NCBI GenBank assembly: GCA_019240405.1
Contig: JAFAYL010000004.1
Span: forward strand, 62,001-126,000
Direction: 5' to 3'
Source of the DNA: Acidobacteriaceae bacterium
Lineage (GTDB): Bacteria > Acidobacteriota > Terriglobia > Bryobacterales > Bryobacteraceae
Length of the DNA stretch: 64,000 bases
The notes beneath the pieces were generated by a model that saw only the letters and a program-made list of their open reading frames with translations, made no database searches and was not told the origin of the DNA. The translations under genes and the position numbers were made by a program. Shown here piece after piece: positions 13,598-20,547 of this stretch (position 1 is the first letter of the stretch; each line of letters starts with the position of its first letter).

Positions 13598-15007
13598 ATG
13601 ACCCCACAGGAAGTTTTGGAGTTTGCAAAGAAGAACGACGCGCGGCAGATCGACCTGCGCTTCACAGATCTCCCCGGTCTGACTCAACATGTCTCGTATC
13701 CGATCACTCAACTCGAGGAGAGCTCATTTGAAGACGGGTTCGGGATCGATGGCTCGAGCATTCGAGGCTGGGCTGCCATCAATGAGAGCGACATGCTCCT
13801 GATTCCTGACGCGGCAACTGCATTCATGGATCCTTTCGCCGAAACTCGCACGCTTGTCATGCTGGGCGACATTCTCGATCCGATTACACGCCAACATTAC
13901 GATCGCGACCCGCGTTGGATCGCGAAGAAAGCCGAGTTGTTTTTGAAAAACAGTGGCTTGGCCGACATTGCATATTTCGGCGCCGAGGCCGAATTCTTCA
14001 TTTTCGACAACATCCGGTTCGACCAAAACCAGCACAGCGGTTTTTACTACATCGACGCCGAGGAAGGGAGATGGAACTCGGGCCGGGAGAATAACAATTT
14101 GGGTTATCGCCCCAGATACAAGGAGGGCTATTTCCCCGTTCCTCCCACCGATCACTACCAAGACCTGCGAAGCGAGATGGTGGCAACCATGCTCGAGTGC
14201 GGCTTGAACGTGGAATGCCATCACCACGAAGTAGCGACAGGCGGGCAGTGTGAAATCGATCAAAAATTCGACACGCTCGTGAAGTCCGCCGATAACATGG
14301 TCCTCTACAAATACGTTGTGCGGAACGTGGCATACCAATATGGAAAAACGGTCACGTTTATGCCCAAGCCTATATTTGGCGATAACGGGAGCGGGATGCA
14401 TACGCACCAGAGCTTGTGGCGCAACGGAACACCGCTATTCGCCGGAGATAATTACGCAGGCTTGAGCCAGATGGCGTTGTGGTACATCGGCGGCTTGCTG
14501 CGCCATGCGCGCGCTCTCTCTGCGATCATTGCGCCAACCACAAACAGCTATAAACGCTTGGTGCCCGGCTATGAGGCGCCTGTCAACCTGGCTTACTCGC
14601 GGCGCAACCGCTCTGCGGCCGTTCGGATTCCGATGTACTCCAACAGCCCGAAATCAAAACGGGTAGAGTTCCGTCCCCCAGACGCGGCGTCGAATCCTTA
14701 TCTAGCGTTCGCGGCAATGATGATGGCAGGACTCGATGGCGTGATGAACAAAATCGATCCCGGGGAGCCGCTCGATAAGGATATTTACGATTTATCACCG
14801 GAGGAAATGAAGAACGTGCCTTCGATGCCTGCCTCTCTCGATGAAGCGCTGACTTGTCTTGAAGAAGATCACCAATTCCTCACAAAAGGCGACGTATTCT
14901 CGGAGGAATTAATCGAGACGTTCGTCTCTTACAAGCAGAAAGCGGAGGCAGAAGCGGTCCGGCTCAGGCCTCACCCTTACGAGTTTGCTCTCTATTATGA
15001 TATTTGA
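13598..15007 (+). CDS. glnA: Glutamine synthetase, type I
   Basis: Makes glutamine from glutamate, ammonia and ATP. The 469 residues match the dodecameric GSI type. Signatures are [26 protein letters not shown], the ATP-site segment [20 protein letters not shown], and [11 protein letters not shown]. The [10 protein letters not shown] stretch contains the Tyr that is adenylylated in GSI-beta enzymes. A strong AAGGAAGG site precedes ATG 13598. It appears monocistronic: xseA is divergent with about 160 nt between starts, and 540 nt of non-coding sequence follow. Confidence 0.97.
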
Positions 15008-15549
15008 GTCAGAAAACGGAACACAGGTAGAAATGCGAGGTCCGAACTCAGTTCTTTTGCCGACTGTTTCGTTGACAGAAAAGACCTGATACTCTTTCGA
15101 GGTCCAGTAATGGGGCCCAGCATGTTATTTCCTTCAGATGTAACCCCAATAGCTATGCTGGATACGCTAGCCGATTCGGTCGAATTGAGTTGGTTTTTGT
15201 TGTAACGAACCCTTCGTATATTCGTGTTGTCGCCCACACAGCAAGCCATTTTGATCGCCTGAAATGATAGACCTGCGCGCTTTTTTTTGATATGATTACC
15301 CCTTCCTTGTGTTACCTGTCTTTCCGGGGCTAGCCGAGCGCGTTTCGGGGCAGTAACGAAACGGGATCAACGGGCCGACACTCAGGAAACTGTTCTGAAA
15401 TCGGAACAACCAGCACGCGTTTATGGTAAGCTCACCTCAAAGGCGTGGGTAACTCCACTGGCGAAGGAGCCACGCAAGTCAGGTCACCGTAAACCGCAGC
15501 GCAGATTACGTTCTCCGACGCCGATTTTGAAAGCGCTTCAACCCATCGC
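15008..15549 (+). other. Gene-poor structured leader between glnA and the XRE regulator
   Basis: 542 nt with no convincing gene. Inverted repeats seen by eye: CCAGCAT/ATGCTGG at 15117-15123/15155-15161; CGTTTCG/CGAAACG at 15341-15347/15357-15363; TGTTC/GAACA at 15391-15395/15404-15408; and a two-part hairpin at 15443-15475. A run of eight T at 15281-15288 follows a weak GCGCGC stem and could be a poor terminator for glnA. The last three structures lie in the presumed 5' leader of the regulator gene starting at 15550. An 84-codon open frame on the minus strand (14995-15249) has no support. Confidence 0.5.
15443..15475 (+). ncRNA. Candidate structured RNA element in the XRE gene leader
   Basis: A stem GCGTGG (15443-15448)/CCACGC (15470-15475) carries an asymmetric GTAA bulge (15449-15452), then a CTCC/GGAG stem (15453-15456/15466-15469) with loop ACTGGCGAA, followed by AAGTCAGG. 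The 3' part CCACGCAAGTCA loosely recalls the conserved ACGCAAAGCC of c-di-GMP-I (GEMM) riboswitches, but the GGCAAACC half and the second GEMM stem are not matched. A leader structure acting in cis on the regulator gene 75 nt downstream is the simplest reading. Riboswitch identity is not established. Confidence 0.3.
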
Positions 15550-16332
15550 ATGGAAGAACCAGGTCAAAAACTCAGGCGAGCTCGCGAAAAACTTCATTTG
15601 AAATATCGGGACGTAGAAGAGGCAAGTCAACGGATAGCGAACCGGAGAGATAACGACGAGTTTCTCATTCGCCTGAGCCGGCTCGCTGATATCGAAAATA
15701 AAGGCACGGTCCCGACCGTATATCGTCTGTATTCTCTTTGTGCGATCTACCGGCTGGATTTTGCTACGGTTCTGCGGTGGTACGGAATTGAGCTCGGAGC
15801 GCTTGCCGCAGATGCGCTAACCACTCCTATTTCGGATACCCATCGAATCGAATTAAAACCCTCGGATACCGGGCACATTGCTTTCCCTGCTGAGTTAAAC
15901 GAGCACGTTGACCTCCGGCAAACTTCGTACCTGAGCAGGCACATCCATCGCTGGGGCAAGTTGCCGTTGGTTTTTACAAACTCGCTCGATTTGCGCAATC
16001 ACTGCTATGGATTCATGGGTACGGAGGACTGGTCGATGTATCCCGTCATTGCTCCGGGTTCCTTTCTTCAGGTCGATGAAAGCAAGCGGCGAATTTCAAC
16101 CGAAGGATGGTCTCACGAATTAGAGCGGCCTATCTACTTCGTCGAACATCATCGCGGATATCGCTGCGGCTGGTGCGCGATGCGGGATGGCAGGCTAATT
16201 GTCCAGTCACATTCCACATCGCATGTTCTACCGGACGTTTTCCGGTTTCCTGGCGACGCAGAAATCGTGGGACAGGTTGTCGGAGTCGCTATGAGGTTGG
16301 ATCTGGGGAAGCGACGCCATACACGTTCTTAA
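15550..16332 (+). CDS. XRE-type helix-turn-helix protein with S24/LexA-like C-terminal domain
   Basis: Predicted DNA-binding regulator of 260 residues. Residues about 5-75 read as an XRE-type HTH (GQKLRRAREKLHLKYRDVEEASQ, then LADIENKGTVPTVYRLYSLCAIYRLD). Residues about 150-255 resemble the beta-rich S24/LexA fold: GFMGTEDWSMYPVIAPGSFLQVD is like the GxSMxPxxxxGD segment. I see no convincing catalytic Lys, so self-cleavage is doubtful. The 3' end overlaps the opposing gene at 16289 by 44 nt. Its targets are unknown; palindromes near 16744 and 16896 are possible operators. Confidence 0.65.
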   Translation: MEEPGQKLRRAREKLHLKYRDVEEASQRIANRRDNDEFLIRLSRLADIENKGTVPTVYRLYSLCAIYRLDFATVLRWYGIELGALAADALTTPISDTHRIELKPSDTGHIAFPAELNEHVDLRQTSYLSRHIHRWGKLPLVFTNSLDLRNHCYGFMGTEDWSMYPVIAPGSFLQVDESKRRISTEGWSHELERPIYFVEHHRGYRCGWCAMRDGRLIVQSHSTSHVLPDVFRFPGDAEIVGQVVGVAMRLDLGKRRHTRS

Positions 16333-16747
16333 GCAGGCCCAGAATTGCTTCGAAGTCGGAGACGTGCTTTTTTCGTTCCGGACCTTGGATTGAGGCAGGA
16401 ACAAGATTCTTGTACGGAGTGAGCCGCAGCCATGCATCGATGAGTTCCGATTTATCCACTTGATCGATGCTTGCGATATAAAGCTCTACATCGGCCTTTT
16501 TCTTTTCTAATGGATAACCAATCCATTCCCTGAATATTGCCTCGTGGCGGGCCTTCAACACTTGGCTCGCTTGTACACTCAGGGAAGTGGTATTCGCACC
16601 ATAGTGCTCGTATCGCCCGGTGTCGGGGTTCCTGAGACCAGCCAAATAGACGAGTCTGCCGTACGAAGTGCGGATGTGAGAAAGGTCTCGGAGCCACAGA
16701 TCAGATAAAATTTCCCGATCCGTTGCCCCGCCCGTGAATGTCCGCAT
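16289..16747 (-). CDS. Conserved-looking protein of unknown function
   Basis: 152 residues, not recognised. The sequence is soluble, mixed and charged, with no signal peptide or membrane segment: it begins MRTFTGGATDREILSDLWLRDL and has helical stretches such as VQASQVLKARHEAIFREWIG. It runs against the regulator gene and overlaps its last 44 nt. The start codon lies inside a 14-nt palindrome GCATTTAAAAATGC (16744-16757), and no ribosome site is visible. The alternative, a chance open frame, is less likely given its normal amino-acid composition, but I cannot exclude it. Confidence 0.5.
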   Translation of the reverse strand: MRTFTGGATDREILSDLWLRDLSHIRTSYGRLVYLAGLRNPDTGRYEHYGANTTSLSVQASQVLKARHEAIFREWIGYPLEKKKADVELYIASIDQVDKSELIDAWLRLTPYKNLVPASIQGPERKKHVSDFEAILGLLKNVYGVASPDPTS

Positions 16748-16757
16748 TTAAAAATGC
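16744..16757. promoter_or_regulatory. Palindrome over the start codon of the 16289-16747 gene
   Basis: GCATTT-AA-AAATGC is a perfect 6+6 inverted repeat covering the ATG (complement of 16745-16747). It could be an operator or an mRNA hairpin that hides the start. No direct evidence for either. Confidence 0.35.
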
Positions 16758-16895
16758 TTTAAATAAATCATACACGGATAAATCCACTCTTCAAGAGGCA
16801 CTGGTACCAATAGGACTAGGACCGTTCTGTTCACGGAAAACATGGGACTTAGATACTCGGAAACCTAACAGGTAAGCTATCGTACAGTAGGGAAG

Positions 16896-16919
16896 ATTAA
16901 AGGAAAATCTACCTTTAAT
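16896..16919. promoter_or_regulatory. 8-bp inverted repeat upstream of the repeat-peptide gene
   Basis: ATTAAAGG (16896-16903) and CCTTTAAT (16912-16919) are perfect inverted repeats with an 8-nt spacer, ending 19 nt before the peptide ATG. An A+T-rich dyad at this place suits a regulator operator; the nearby XRE protein is an obvious candidate binder. A small mRNA hairpin is the alternative. Confidence 0.4.
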
Positions 16920-16938
16920 TCAGAAAAACGGGACCTAT

Positions 16939-17163
16939 ATGAGACTAGTAATTTCAACATCTTTTCTAATTATCAGCCTGTTTGGCACTGCACAAGCTAA
17001 ATCGTCGAATGGAGCTGTGCTTCCAACGGGCCATACCAACGAACCGATGGCAGTAGCGGACTCGCCGATTCCGGATCCGCACAGCAAGCAGTGCCCGCAG
17101 CTCGTCGCAGATTCGCCGATTCCGGATCCGCACAGCAAGCAGTGTCCGTCAGTAGCGGTTTAA
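16939..17163 (+). CDS. Small exported peptide with a 15-residue tandem repeat
   Basis: A 74-residue precursor, not recognised as any known family. Residues 1-20 form a Sec signal peptide (hydrophobic VISTSFLIISLFG, then AQA cleavage site). The mature part of about 54 residues contains VADSPIPDPHSKQCP twice (residues 39-53 and 56-70), each copy with one Cys (52 and 69). GGGA lies upstream of ATG 16939. A hairpin without a T-tract follows the stop. The next gene, a membrane protein, starts 84 nt downstream on the same strand. Repeat-bearing exported precursors can be signalling, antimicrobial or structural peptides; none of these is shown here. Confidence 0.6.
   Translation: MRLVISTSFLIISLFGTAQAKSSNGAVLPTGHTNEPMAVADSPIPDPHSKQCPQLVADSPIPDPHSKQCPSVAV
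17053..17148 (+). repeat. 45-bp near-identical direct repeat within the peptide gene
   Basis: Copies at 17053-17097 and 17104-17148, separated by 6 nt, in frame (period 51 nt). They differ at only a few third-position bases near the ends and are identical across the central stretch of about 32 nt, pointing to recent duplication or strong constraint. Confidence 0.9.
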
Positions 17164-17172
17164 GCCGACCTG

Positions 17173-17189
17173 CTGCCGGTAAGCGGCAG
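17173..17189 (+). other. Hairpin after the repeat-peptide stop codon
   Basis: CTGCCG-GTAAG-CGGCAG, a 6-bp stem with 5-nt loop, begins 10 nt after the stop. No T-run follows, so it is more likely an mRNA-stabilising or processing structure than a terminator. Confidence 0.4.
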
Positions 17190-17247
17190 TAAACAGTTGC
17201 TGAGATCGCAGTTCGGCACTACCATCCTAAAGTAGTTGGTGACCGGC

Positions 17248-18045
17248 ATGAGCTGGGCGCGCCTCGCGCAAGACATCAATATCGTCCTCGGGCTCATCCT
17301 GATCATTCGCTTTTTAGTCCTTGGATTGGAGAGGGTATACCGGATCTTCTGCCTCTTCCTGGTTGTGCAATTTCTCGGCGACTTAATCGCTTTTTTGGCC
17401 TCCATTGAACCTAAGTACTTTCCTGATTACCGCCTGATTTGGATGATTAGTCGGGCCGTGGTCTGGCTTTTTACCCTCTGGACCGTCTATGCGCTACTAG
17501 AGGCCGTGTTAAGCAGCCTCCCCGGAATCCTACGATTCTCACGAAAATTACTGAATTCCGCCTTTATTCTATCCATCATCGTTGGATTGCTGAGCGCCAG
17601 GCCGGAATATTCGATATCTGGGCTGTCCGGCGAAAGCGACCCGGTGGCGCAGGCTTTAGGAGTAGCTATCGTGCTGGATCGCGTAGTATGCACCATCGCG
17701 CTCTTGGTGCTAGTGTCGATCTTAGGTTTTGTTGTTTGGTTTCCGGTAGAAATATCGAGGAACTTGATAGTCTTTACCACTGGGTTCCTCGTGTATTTTG
17801 CTGCAAAGAGTGCTCTTTTGCTCACTCGCAGTTTTTGGTCCCACGAAAGTCTTCGGCTGATCAGCAATTTGATAATGTTTATCTCGAGCGCGTGCTTTGC
17901 CTATTGGGCGGTATTTATTAATCGCGCCGGAGCGGCTGTCGCGGTGAAAATTGGGCATTCCTGGCGCCGGCATGAGCAGGATAGGCTGATCGGACAACTT
18001 GAGGCGGTGAATGCCGCATTGTTGCGCGCGGCGGCTCGCAGATGA
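17248..18045 (+). CDS. Multi-pass integral membrane protein of unknown function
   Basis: About 265 residues with roughly seven hydrophobic segments, for example INIVLGLILIIRFLVLGL, FCLFLVVQFLGDLIAFLA, MISRAVVWLFTLWTVYALLE, FILSIIVGLLS, and IALLVLVSILGFVVWF. A short charged C-terminal tail (HSWRRHEQDRLIGQLEAVNAALLRAAARR) is probably a cytoplasmic helix. No transporter or enzyme motif was recognised. ATG 17248 has GGTGA 5 nt upstream; GTG 17239 and TTG 17236 are alternatives. It follows the exported peptide gene by 84 nt and may be cotranscribed with it. A receptor or exporter role is only a guess from position. Confidence 0.65.
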   Translation: MSWARLAQDINIVLGLILIIRFLVLGLERVYRIFCLFLVVQFLGDLIAFLASIEPKYFPDYRLIWMISRAVVWLFTLWTVYALLEAVLSSLPGILRFSRKLLNSAFILSIIVGLLSARPEYSISGLSGESDPVAQALGVAIVLDRVVCTIALLVLVSILGFVVWFPVEISRNLIVFTTGFLVYFAAKSALLLTRSFWSHESLRLISNLIMFISSACFAYWAVFINRAGAAVAVKIGHSWRRHEQDRLIGQLEAVNAALLRAAARR

Positions 18046-18133
18046 GCCGGAACGAGGCGCCGACTGAAATTAAGCGTTACCCGTGCTCAATTTTGTACAT
18101 GATTTGGCCGAAAACCGAATTCCAAGGGAAAAA

Positions 18134-18186
18134 CCTAGTATTAGGTATTGAAAACCCGCTCAGTATTCTGTAGCCTAATATTACGG
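18134..18186. promoter_or_regulatory. Direct repeat CCTAnTATTA upstream of the 18195 gene
   Basis: CCTAGTATTAGG (18134-18145, itself a CCTA/TAGG dyad) and CCTAATATTACGG (18174-18186) share CCTAnTATTA, 40 nt apart, in the 149-nt gap before a TTG-started gene. Spacing close to four helical turns suits a paired binding site. Confidence 0.35.
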
Positions 18187-18194
18187 AGCAAACG

Positions 18195-18719
18195 TTGACC
18201 TCGCTTCTGTTAGTCGCGCCACTGTGCCTGTTCGGCCTTTCGGCGGCGCTGGCATGTCCGGTACTGGCAAGGCTTTACCGGAGGTGCCGAGTTGAGGAAA
18301 TTACGCCGGAGTGGTTGGAGAGTTTTTCCGTATCATCATACGAGCCCATGGAGGGCCTCCTGGCAGACGAAGATTTCAAGTTTCTGTCGCGTCAAGCCGG
18401 ATTTGATTTTTCCCTCTATCGCAAATTGAGACGTGAACGTCTTCACATCTTCCGGCAGTACTTCGGGCGGTTGGTGAATGATTTTAACCGCTTGCACCTT
18501 GTCACGCGTGTTCTCATCGCGCAAAGCGCTGAGGACCACTCGGATCTCCTCGCCAAGCTGGTTTGGCTGAAATTCCGGTTTGCAGCCACCGTCGTCCGCA
18601 CCGAGGCTAATTATCAGCTATGTTGCCTTGGCCTGAGATACCTTGCCGTGCGTTCACTGATCGCGCAGTTGGACGAGATACACGCTCACGTAACTGCCGT
18701 CTCGCTTCGGGTGGCTTAA
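18195..18719 (+). CDS. Unknown protein with an N-terminal membrane anchor
   Basis: 174 residues, family not recognised. Residues 1-22 (TSLLLVAPLCLFGLSAALACP) form a hydrophobic segment that could be an uncleaved anchor or signal. The remainder is helical and charged, with tandem amphipathic stretches (FDFSLYRKLRRERLHIFRQYFGRLVNDFNRLHLVTRVLIAQ). The start is TTG 18195, preceded by CGGAG at a good distance; no ATG lies nearby. It follows the multi-pass membrane protein by 149 nt, a gap holding a direct repeat, so it may have its own promoter. The 3' end meets the reading frame of the broken metallopeptidase. Confidence 0.6.
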   Translation: MTSLLLVAPLCLFGLSAALACPVLARLYRRCRVEEITPEWLESFSVSSYEPMEGLLADEDFKFLSRQAGFDFSLYRKLRRERLHIFRQYFGRLVNDFNRLHLVTRVLIAQSAEDHSDLLAKLVWLKFRFAATVVRTEANYQLCCLGLRYLAVRSLIAQLDEIHAHVTAVSLRVA

Positions 18720-19481
18720 AGCCCAGGCTTTAATCGATCTCAGCGGAAGTGTTAGGATAAAGCGCTTGAGGGCCGCTTTCGCGTCCTTGTATGGCTCAAA
18801 ACGTCGCTCAGCATTTCTTGAACTGGGTGGTATGCCCCTGCGCCCTAGCCTCTTTGTGATCAATTGGAAATTTCAAGTGCAACATCTCGTGGAAGAGGAC
18901 GAATTCCACGATTAATGCGGGTGCTTTCTGTGAATCCAGTAGCTTGCTTAATACAATCGCATGATGTGAAAGGTCATAGTGCCCCAAAGTGGTGCGGGAC
19001 GACTGCCTGCTCCAGCCCAGTTGAGGCCGCGCAATTGATCCATCGAAATATTGGGTGTTAAGTTTTTCGAAAATTTGCTCAAGATCATAGACGGCGCCTT
19101 TTGGGTTTCGGAGCAGCTTGCGCCCTCGCTGCCGCTTCACAAGCTGCATCGCGCGGCGAAGATCGGCTCGATTCAGATAGCGCCGATATCGAGCGAGCAT
19201 CTGAGGCGCTAGAGTCTTGCGGAAAAGTTTGGCTAAAAGAATGAATGCTAAGGCCTCTTGATCGGCGCAGGAGCGCCTTCTAATAAGTCGCTGATATAAA
19301 CCGTCAGCTCTGCCCGGTCAAACTTAATCCGGCTGTTTGCATTCGCGTATCGGCGAAAACGTATCGTGATCGGAGGAACGGGAATGTGTGGCGCGATAAC
19401 ACAAAAAGCTCTCGCGTAAATCTGCTCGATCGTCTCAAAAAAAAGAGCCGTCTCGACTTGCATCTGCCCAAAATGTAACAT
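18654..19481 (-). pseudogene. SprT-like zinc metallopeptidase, disrupted by two frameshifts
   Basis: Three minus-strand frames read as one protein. Piece 1, from ATG 19481 (MLHFGQMQVETALFFETIEQ), runs to DLLEGAPAPI and then stops at 19248. One missing base near 19261 would continue it as KEALAFILLAKLFRKTLAP into piece 2 (MLARYRRYLNRADLRRA). Piece 2 carries FHEMLHLKFP, the HExxH zinc motif, and stops at 18808 after HTTQFKKC. A second shift near 18811-18815 restores AERRFEPYKDAKAALKRF. The combined sequence has the order of SprT/M48-like peptidases found in Acidobacteria. Both breaks lie at short A runs, so sequencing error and a true pseudogene are both possible. Confidence 0.75.
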
Positions 19482-19560
19482 GGTACATCGCTCTTGGCCT
19501 ACCGATTGTAGGGCGACCCTAACGAATCCGTAGGCCAGACTAACCAAGCGAGAGGTTCTG

Positions 19561-20547
19561 TTGAGAACGGCAAAAATCACTGCGATCGGCTGCTTCGTAC
19601 CGCCCCGTGTTTTGACAAATCACGATTTGTCTCAAATGGTTGAGACCAGCGATGAATGGATCAGGGAACGGACGGGCATCCGCGAGCGGCATATTGCCAA
19701 TCCTGAGATTGCGACATCGGACATGGCTGTAGCCGCTGCCCGACAGGCGCTCTGTGAGCGCGGAATGGCCGGAGCCGAGCTCGAAGCGATTATCGTTTGC
19801 ACCGTTACGCCAGACATGATGTTTCCCTCGACGGCATGCTTAGTCCAGCACCAGCTCGGCGCACTGCGGGCTTGGGGCTTCGATCTCGTGGCCGCCTGCT
19901 CCGGATTCCTGTATGGCCTAACAACGGCGGCCCAACTCGTTGCGACCGGCGCTCACCGGAACGTCCTGGTTATTGGGGCCGACACCATGTCGCGGATCAT
20001 CGATTACACAGATCGCGGAACGTGCATTCTTTTCGGAGACGCGGCAGGAGCCTTTTTGGTCGAGTCTGGCGAGGACTCGGAAGCTTACATCGGCCATCTT
20101 CATGAAATAGACGGGTCAGGAGGCGATTTTCTGAAAATGCCCGCTGGGGGTAGCCGTCTTCCAGCCTCGCAGGAAACGGTTTCCGAGCGGCTGCACTATG
20201 TCAAACAGGAAGGGCAACAGGTGTTTAAATTTGCAGTGCGAAAGATGTACGAGATCTGCGAACGCTTGTTGGAAAAGCATGGTCTGTCTCCGCAAGATGT
20301 GAAATTGCTAATTCCGCATCAGGCGAACAAACGCATCATCGCGGCGACTGCGCAACGCTTGGGCTTGCCGGATGATCAGGTCGTCATCAATCTCGACAAG
20401 TACGGCAACACTACTGCTGGAACGATTCCCCTTGCTACGCGTGATGCAATTACCCAAAACCGGCTGAAGAAAGGGGATTTAGTGCTGTTTGCGGCCGTAG
20501 GGGCCGGCTACACAGCGGGCGCTATTTTGTGGAGGTGGGGATACTAG
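19561..20547 (+). CDS. fabH: 3-oxoacyl-ACP synthase III
   Basis: Starts fatty-acid elongation by condensing acetyl-CoA with malonyl-ACP. The 328 residues hold the full catalytic triad: Cys113 in AACSGF, His253 in PHQANKR, Asn283 in GNTTAGT. TSDEWIRERTGIRERHI and GAGYTAGAILWRW are typical. The start is TTG 19561 with GAGAGG 5 nt upstream; no better ATG exists. Its 3' end overlaps the convergent transglycosylase gene by 26 nt. No fab cluster surrounds it; fabG is 6 kb away on the other strand. Confidence 0.95.
   Translation: MRTAKITAIGCFVPPRVLTNHDLSQMVETSDEWIRERTGIRERHIANPEIATSDMAVAAARQALCERGMAGAELEAIIVCTVTPDMMFPSTACLVQHQLGALRAWGFDLVAACSGFLYGLTTAAQLVATGAHRNVLVIGADTMSRIIDYTDRGTCILFGDAAGAFLVESGEDSEAYIGHLHEIDGSGGDFLKMPAGGSRLPASQETVSERLHYVKQEGQQVFKFAVRKMYEICERLLEKHGLSPQDVKLLIPHQANKRIIAATAQRLGLPDDQVVINLDKYGNTTAGTIPLATRDAITQNRLKKGDLVLFAAVGAGYTAGAILWRWGY

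Follow-up and report, generated by a model that had tools for sequence, protein, structure and literature searches.

The yeast alpha-factor is a pheromone whose precursor carries several units with dibasic (Kex2-like) cut sites before them, and its receptor, Ste2, has seven helices. Here, we describe a block of five bacterial genes with a comparable outline. The block lies in a 64-kb stretch (the window) of an Acidobacteriaceae genome of the class Terriglobia (assembly GCA_019240405.1, contig JAFAYL010000004.1, positions 62,001 to 126,000) and encodes a helix-turn-helix (HTH) regulator (REG), a small peptide precursor, a membrane protein with seven predicted transmembrane helices (MEM), and two further proteins of 152 and 174 amino acids (aa), P152 and P174. 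Like alpha-factor and Ste2, it combines a precursor of near-identical short units and drifting spacers, predicted to be secreted, with a seven-helix protein, a likeness of shape for which no homology is claimed. Unlike the units of alpha-factor, those of the block follow small residues (Ala in 50 and Lys in 4 of 74 cases) rather than dibasic sites; moreover, the block is bacterial, no G protein was seen, and peptide and MEM are only a candidate ligand-receptor pair.

Other described systems share parts of this arrangement. The idea of a seven-helix membrane sensor links MEM to the bacterial 7TMR-DISM and 7TM sensors. 7TMR-DISM sensors carry a fused output domain, whereas MEM has no Pfam match of that kind and, at 249 to 279 aa in the 58 members as delimited, has no room for such a domain. 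The Gram-positive agr, ComX, and Rgg/SHP systems likewise unite a small exported peptide, a membrane protein, and an HTH regulator in one locus; the block differs in that its proteins have no Pfam kinase or response-regulator match, in its multi-unit or multi-gene precursors, and in its occurrence in Acidobacteriota. Finally, an open reading frame (ORF) with a signal peptide upstream of a membrane gene is shared with RAPP and SecM, but the block has repeats, lacks the motif R[AG]P[PG] (0/135 peptide ORFs), and encodes a MEM that matches no Sec or YidC Pfam family. We lean, by a little, towards reading the block as a peptide-signalling module.

Results

The peptide gene (16939-17163, + strand, 74 aa in the ORF listing) is real. 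In the window, residues 1 to 20 of its product resemble a signal peptide and precede two 15-aa units, VADSPIPDPHSKQCP, located by repeat comparison at 17053-17097 and 17104-17148 (+ strand), whose 45-nucleotide (nt) DNA copies are 91% identical; an earlier note on this DNA had pointed to a tiny exported repeat peptide. The search of relatives relied on a strict rule, which requires a start codon, a Shine-Dalgarno-like motif, Lys or Arg near the start, a hydrophobic stretch, and a Pro content of 12% or more beyond residue 20. In the 1 kb that precedes MEM, this rule recovered a peptide ORF in 104 of 132 non-redundant loci; the controls gave 0/132 on the opposite strand, 1/132 in each of two shuffles and 4/132 in a third, 0/119 before REG, 0/122 before P152, 1/116 before P174, 0/48 before an SprT-like gene found beside the block, and 0/111 downstream. 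Without the Pro condition, the count was 110/132 versus 1 to 10 in the controls, except for 27/116 before P174, because MEM itself gets read there. A looser rule, run without controls, placed a peptide at 118 of 137 MEM loci. Peptide and MEM are neighbours across the class, an arrangement that the earlier note had suggested looking for, and MEM homologs mostly have a peptide nearby, with the caveat that exact internal repeats of at least 8 residues occur in only 28 of 118 peptide loci, the window among them. The window peptide itself has weak sequence matches upstream of MEM in two genomes, G181 (E 3e-6) and G255 (E 0.004).

Precursors hold at most nine units per ORF (L037 and L054), and the remaining loci mostly encode one short peptide predicted to be exported, with tandem genes in a few. 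More than one peptide ORF was found in 12 loci, seven of which proved by inspection to be true tandem arrays (L042, L045, L055, L195, L199, L224, and L227) of two to five whole-gene copies, five in L042; in the other five loci, the second ORF is doubtful. L082, with two peptide genes, was dropped by the motif filter of the looser-rule count. The mature part often reads PxPxCxPC in the window's family (59 of 118 loci overall), resembles DGPLPDPNSPNPP in the window's genus, and is often ADGxPxPPxPP in f6. The genome G255 has two MEM loci (L038 and L059) with different repeat peptides, AEIPMPDPNSPKRPTLT and ETVIPVPHCYPCNNG, both repeats being partly masked.

Purifying selection acts on the peptide core. 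Within a precursor, the core stays near-constant while the spacers drift, as in L079 (KILPVP[DE]CWPCDD) and L171 (KILPVPDCWPCADD). Unit-against-unit comparison in fixed register over seven precursors gave a proportion of synonymous differences (pS) of 0.496 and of non-synonymous differences (pN) of 0.062; pN was 0.012 in the core, where the motifs by which the units were located bias the value downwards. The last 18 codons of four of the five gene copies of L042 gave a pS of 0.46 and a pN of 0.00, and the two window units have four synonymous and no non-synonymous differences. Figures for L199 (pN 0.36-0.40) were disregarded because its copies are of unequal length and out of frame, and in L037, L157, and L178 the unit length was set one codon off, with units that touch, overlap, or skip a codon. 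With the starts as set, the residue before the unit was A, S, T, or G in 67 of 74 units from 19 precursors (Ala in 50, Lys in 4), which would suit a signal-peptidase-like cut.

MEM (17248-18045, + strand, 265 aa) begins 84 nt after the peptide gene. Its AlphaFold2 model, built from 58 sequences, has seven helices and a C-terminal helix (predicted local distance difference test [pLDDT] 92.2, predicted template modeling score [pTM] 0.86). Charges favour an N-outside/C-inside orientation, the first intracellular loop (ICL1) carrying most positive charge among the loops. In this orientation, the outer third of the helices is more variable than the inner third (entropy 2.80 versus 2.07, p=5.6e-8), variability is higher in the extracellular than in the inner loops, and the residues with the highest conservation (N172 and W220 in 58/58, P166 and N255 in 57/58) are mostly found at the inner side and within the C-terminal helix. 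Such a modelled pattern, variable outside and conserved inside, is expected of a receptor whose ligands change while its inner partner stays fixed, and other membrane proteins may match it as well. Among the best 50 matches listed by VIA structure alignment, nearly all are G protein-coupled receptors (GPCRs), with Z 13.5-11.4 and a root mean square deviation of 3.4-5.0 over 178-198 residues, values to be read against the Z of ∼13 that helical bundles reach by arrangement alone. GPCRs carry NPxxY in helix 7 and DRY at helix 3, and microbial rhodopsins have a retinal-binding Lys in helix 7; among the 58 MEM sequences, NPxxY was found in none and [DE]R[YFHWC] in four, and no helix-7 column had Lys in more than one. 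Sequence comparison with solved structures gave no relative up to E 1, and Pfam gave only stray single-member matches, to DUF2678 (E 6e-4) and SK_channel (E 7e-4). The model reads as a seven-helix fold and nothing beyond.

The interval between the two genes is also structured. The whole 84-nt gap of the window (17164-17247) folds with z=-1.62 relative to shuffles, and the corresponding gap in 111 loci (101-258 nt, gaps over 260 nt being left out) has a mean z of -1.73, more structured than shuffles. RNA folding places a hairpin directly 3' of the peptide stop codon (17171-17191, + strand), which perhaps favours the peptide over the MEM message.

The block is conserved as a unit. The order REG(+)/P152(-)/peptide(+)/MEM(+)/P174(+) is fixed in several families of the class. 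Single-protein searches of 299 class genomes matched MEM in 53, REG in 180 (E<=0.001, some matches being weak or partial), and P152 in 148. Flanks of at most ∼9 kb around 57 other MEM places, 58 loci with the window, contained REG in 40, P152 in 40, P174 in 46, and the SprT-like gene in 22, in one order and orientation bar a few rearranged or distant loci. The contig ends less than 600 nt upstream of MEM in nine of the 58 (L046, L047, L052, L058, L072, L083, L087, L088, and L090), breaks that repeats would explain. Anchoring on REG provided 58 further usable loci, mostly picked where the single-query search had seen no MEM nearby; since a profile search recovered MEM in 38 of them, the lack of a match in the single-query search does not amount to absence. 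When named genomes, partly overlapping the earlier sets, were scanned using the REG alignment, the best 80 of 300 confirmed loci all belonged to genomes with acidobacterial names (Bryobacteraceae, Bryobacterales, Solibacter, and similar); among the 60 with more than 3.2 kb rightward, P152 was present in 59, MEM in 53, and P174 in 55. REG was matched in 25 of 297 genomes drawn phylum-wide, in which full-length matches outside the class were limited to two genomes of one family (f31), where locus L232 has REG, P152, MEM, and P174.

The exceptions to this pattern in part bear out the association of peptide and MEM. Twelve of the 17 REG-P152 loci that lack MEM, with at least 1.5 kb of sequence beyond P152, also lack the peptide, and in G279 and G293 the peptide remains beside REG, with MEM at another place in the genome; both observations support the signalling reading. 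A mobile or phage origin was considered and rejected, as MEM had no matches in plasmids, REG had none in phages, and the order is kept across the class, and a defence system was set aside for want of a PADLOC match. Our comparisons show that the genes are real and the block is conserved; apart from its HTH, this module has no named relative in the libraries searched.

One putative operator connects the promoters of REG and of the peptide. The word TCAGAACA occurs in 24 of 98 peptide promoters versus 0.7 expected, and the enriched words combine into an 18-base-pair (bp) palindrome, TGTTCYGAAwTCRGAACA. At a threshold of at least 12 bits, this palindrome is found in 79 of the 98 peptide promoters, its training set (0.2 in shuffled sequence), in 132 of 162 REG promoters, which are other DNA from the same set of loci (1.0 shuffled), and in 115 of 154 P152 promoters, a region shared with the peptide promoter; it stands before MEM in 0/147, P174 in 0/138, and SprT in 1/56 cases. 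The two best-scoring positions of the entire window are the putative operator TGTTCTGAAATCGGAACA 5' of REG (15391-15408, 26.1 bits) and a degenerate second copy, also putative, 5' of the peptide (16823-16840, 16.3 bits), which begins 116 nt before the peptide start, the distance in 25 listed relatives being mostly 98-120 nt. Elsewhere in the same genome, TKTTCNGANNTCNGAAMA has five sites with one mismatch (control, one), and its only zero-mismatch site is the one before REG. The 41 genomes of the family hold 36 exact sites (reversed control, 0), distributed over 25 genomes, with 16 lacking an exact site; 19 of these sites are at this block, 10 at one other locus, and 7 elsewhere. Because REG has an HTH, is suitably positioned, and has a site in its own promoter, we infer that it binds the palindrome.

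The second locus with this operator was seen in ten of the 41 genomes (L264, L267, L269, L271, L272, L276, L278, L280, L281, and L282), where the site precedes the gene of a small, conserved basic protein (MDVxKILxELRxER...RRRGRPP) that we take to be AT-hook-like, frequently with another, less perfect copy ∼80-110 nt away; two genes further upstream are presumably transporter-like. The ORF of the small basic protein explains the operator there. An RNA gene was found neither by Rfam gathering scores (ten loci) nor by ARAGORN (nine loci).

REG (15550-16332, + strand, 260 aa) and P152 (16289-16747, - strand, start codon uncertain) are arranged tail-to-tail, with 3' ends overlapping by 44 nt. The earlier note had described REG as XRE/S24-like. 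An XRE-type HTH is borne out at the family level by Pfam (HTH_31 in 15/21 and HTH_19 in 13/21 members, E<=0.01), the window REG alone giving a weak match (E 0.0011) below the curated cut-off; indeed, none of the five window proteins reaches a curated Pfam or NCBIfam cut-off. The S24 part was not confirmed: the C-terminal domain, presumed to have an S24-like fold, has no S24 Pfam match and no significant PDB match (best E 0.28), and at column 162, where we take the Ser-Lys pair motif of S24/LexA-type self-cleaving repressors to fall, Ser is present in only 6/21 members, the window included. This domain carries a near-invariant CxWC motif (C206 21/21, W208 21/21, C209 19/21). P152 belongs to no Pfam family save for one stray match in 1/38 members, and P174 (18195-18719, + strand) has none among 49. 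The P174 model (pLDDT 91.4) predicts one N-terminal membrane helix followed by a helical domain, and its fold could not be assigned through the PDB (best E 1.5).

As to the other statements of the earlier note, the ORFs are where it had put them, including the 152-aa opposing gene, the peptide, and the membrane protein 84 nt on, and the absence of known families is right for the block proteins and wrong for the HTH of REG. The anchored 174-aa protein agrees with the ORF and the membrane-helix model, and the direct repeat claimed ahead of its gene dwindled to a single 11-nt pair with two mismatches. Sequence inspection also recovered the A+T-rich dyad ATTAAAGG/CCTTTAAT (16896-16919, perfect 8-nt arms), which ends 19 nt before the peptide start, and the palindromic start of the opposing gene, ATTTAAA/TTTAAAT (16746-16764, 7-nt arms), at the P152 start codon; the stretch around the dyad (16850-16938) folds little better than shuffles (z=-0.73). 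The structured leader proposed for REG was not upheld, since 15290-15549 folds no better than shuffles (z=+0.71, 151/200 being at least as stable) and Rfam gave no match below E 0.5 across 14900-19600, with one chance-level match at E 0.57. The two copies of the 18-bp palindrome and the conservation of the block are additions to what that note describes.

On the left, REG is preceded by a gene ending at 15007 that we take to be glutamine-synthetase-like. On the right, the SprT-like gene (- strand) occupies two frames in the window (ORFs 18808-19200 and 19248-19580) and must be broken or misassembled there, as it is a single ORF of ∼247 aa in the relatives L010 and L127. In L127 and L169, the SprT-like gene is paired, as in the window, with a gene like that at 19561, presumably ketoacyl-synthase-like.

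Discussion

Based on these results, we infer that the module serves signalling rather than another use of the peptide. In the proposed mechanism, REG would bind both copies of the 18-bp palindrome, one in its own promoter and one in the divergent promoter of P152 and the peptide, and would thereby set the supply of peptide. The precursor would be exported via its signal peptide, and multi-unit precursors would be cut at small-residue sites, mostly after Ala, to yield near-identical Pro-rich cores of ∼10-20 residues. Such a core could be sensed at the outer face by the seven-helix MEM, whose conserved inner face and C-terminal helix may relay the signal to P174, at its cytoplasmic part; an unspecified step might then carry it to REG or P152. 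A more specific and more tentative proposal, which we hold to be plausible rather than probable, is that Terriglobia possess signalling akin to that of fungal mating pheromones, in which the precursor would be secreted and often multi-unit, the seven-helix receptor would stand alone and have a receptor-like build (variable outside, conserved inside), and transducer and repressor would be dedicated to the system; the HTH apart, no component would come from a known signalling family.

Several observations weigh against the signalling reading. The Pro threshold of the strict rule was chosen after the peptides had been seen and the controls share the same rule, so the controls weigh more than the rate; signal peptides were called by a hydrophobicity rule; and the window peptide was missed by the strict rule for its poor Shine-Dalgarno motif and found only by the looser one. 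No peptide was found by the looser rule at 19 of 137 MEM loci, and none is recognisable in the outlying f31 block (L232). Five REG loci (L127, L130, L161, L180, and L197) have peptides and no MEM nearby, MEM being located elsewhere in two of these genomes, and seven f5 loci (L094-L100) have REG and P152 without MEM or peptide, the flank of L096 being only 0.5 kb, so this pair has a life of its own. Furthermore, MEM was oriented by a small bias in charge with a narrow margin per loop, its Foldseek matches are not significant (best E 0.08, none at E<=0.001), and co-variation of peptide and MEM beyond that due to locus was not clear in partial Mantel tests (r=0.033, 52/200 permutations as high; r=0.067, 22/200, with P174 also held constant). 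In these f5 loci, REG and P152 are again tail-to-tail and, with the same reservation for the flank of L096, P174 is likewise missing; the REG-P152 pair may be the older unit.

The same genes can be read in other ways. Small, exported, fast-diverging, and multiplied peptides next to a membrane protein, with different peptides at two loci of one genome (L038 and L059), are also what one would see if the peptide harmed competitors and MEM and P174 provided immunity or export. We consider such an antimicrobial role unlikely, given that MEM is usually a single match per genome, that the order is kept across much of the class, and that the plasmid, phage, and PADLOC searches described above returned no match; moreover, no recurring transporter was noticed in the block, whose neighbours were not systematically searched for one, and the conserved inner and variable outer faces of MEM suit reception better than immunity. 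Cysteine content suggests still another function, in which the peptide would act outside the cell as a thiol (CxPC) with metal or redox activity, MEM would serve it, and the CxWC of REG, kept in 19-21 of 21 members, would be a redox sensor. At least two Cys follow residue 18 in 94 of 118 peptide loci, and CxPC occurs in 62. Yet Cys is missing beyond residue 18 in 18 of the 118, including f6 loci whose units read ADGxPxPP, and the window peptide has one Cys per unit, with the rest of the block present all the same, which makes this function rather improbable in our view.

It is equally conceivable that the peptide acts while being translated, as a Pro-rich exported ORF that stalls ribosomes and thereby controls translation of the downstream membrane gene like SecM or RAPP. 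Both the placement of an ORF with a signal peptide and a Pro-rich end a short way ahead of a membrane gene (101-258 nt in the 111 gaps kept) and the structured gap that follows (mean z -1.73) would agree with an arrest peptide, but R[AG]P[PG], the only such motif examined, is absent from all 135 peptide ORFs, a single stall is a poor explanation for ORFs with as many as nine near-identical units or for five genes in tandem, and the core is selected at the protein level between copies; we therefore give this idea a slim chance. The chance is similarly slim that the palindrome belongs to another repressor, for example a LexA-like one, with REG, P152, and the peptide as mere members of a larger regulon: in 10 of 41 genomes, the same site does stand before an unrelated gene that encodes a small basic protein, but the 41 genomes contain only 36 exact sites, 19 of them at this block and 10 at that one other locus, and autoregulation would account for the site before REG.

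Acidobacteriota rank among the most abundant bacteria in soil. The open-access literature searched yielded no acidobacterial peptide signal, nor did it contain the present system, a search that is weak for subscription journals. Even if the signalling reading is wrong, the block contributes a defined operator, a short-peptide gene family, and three unnamed co-conserved protein families (MEM, P174, and P152), all new as far as searched. If it is true, cells across the class would signal to one another through the block, the ligands of dozens of species would be predicted at the sequence level, and a seven-helix receptor that stands alone and takes a multi-copy peptide ligand would exist outside eukaryotes.

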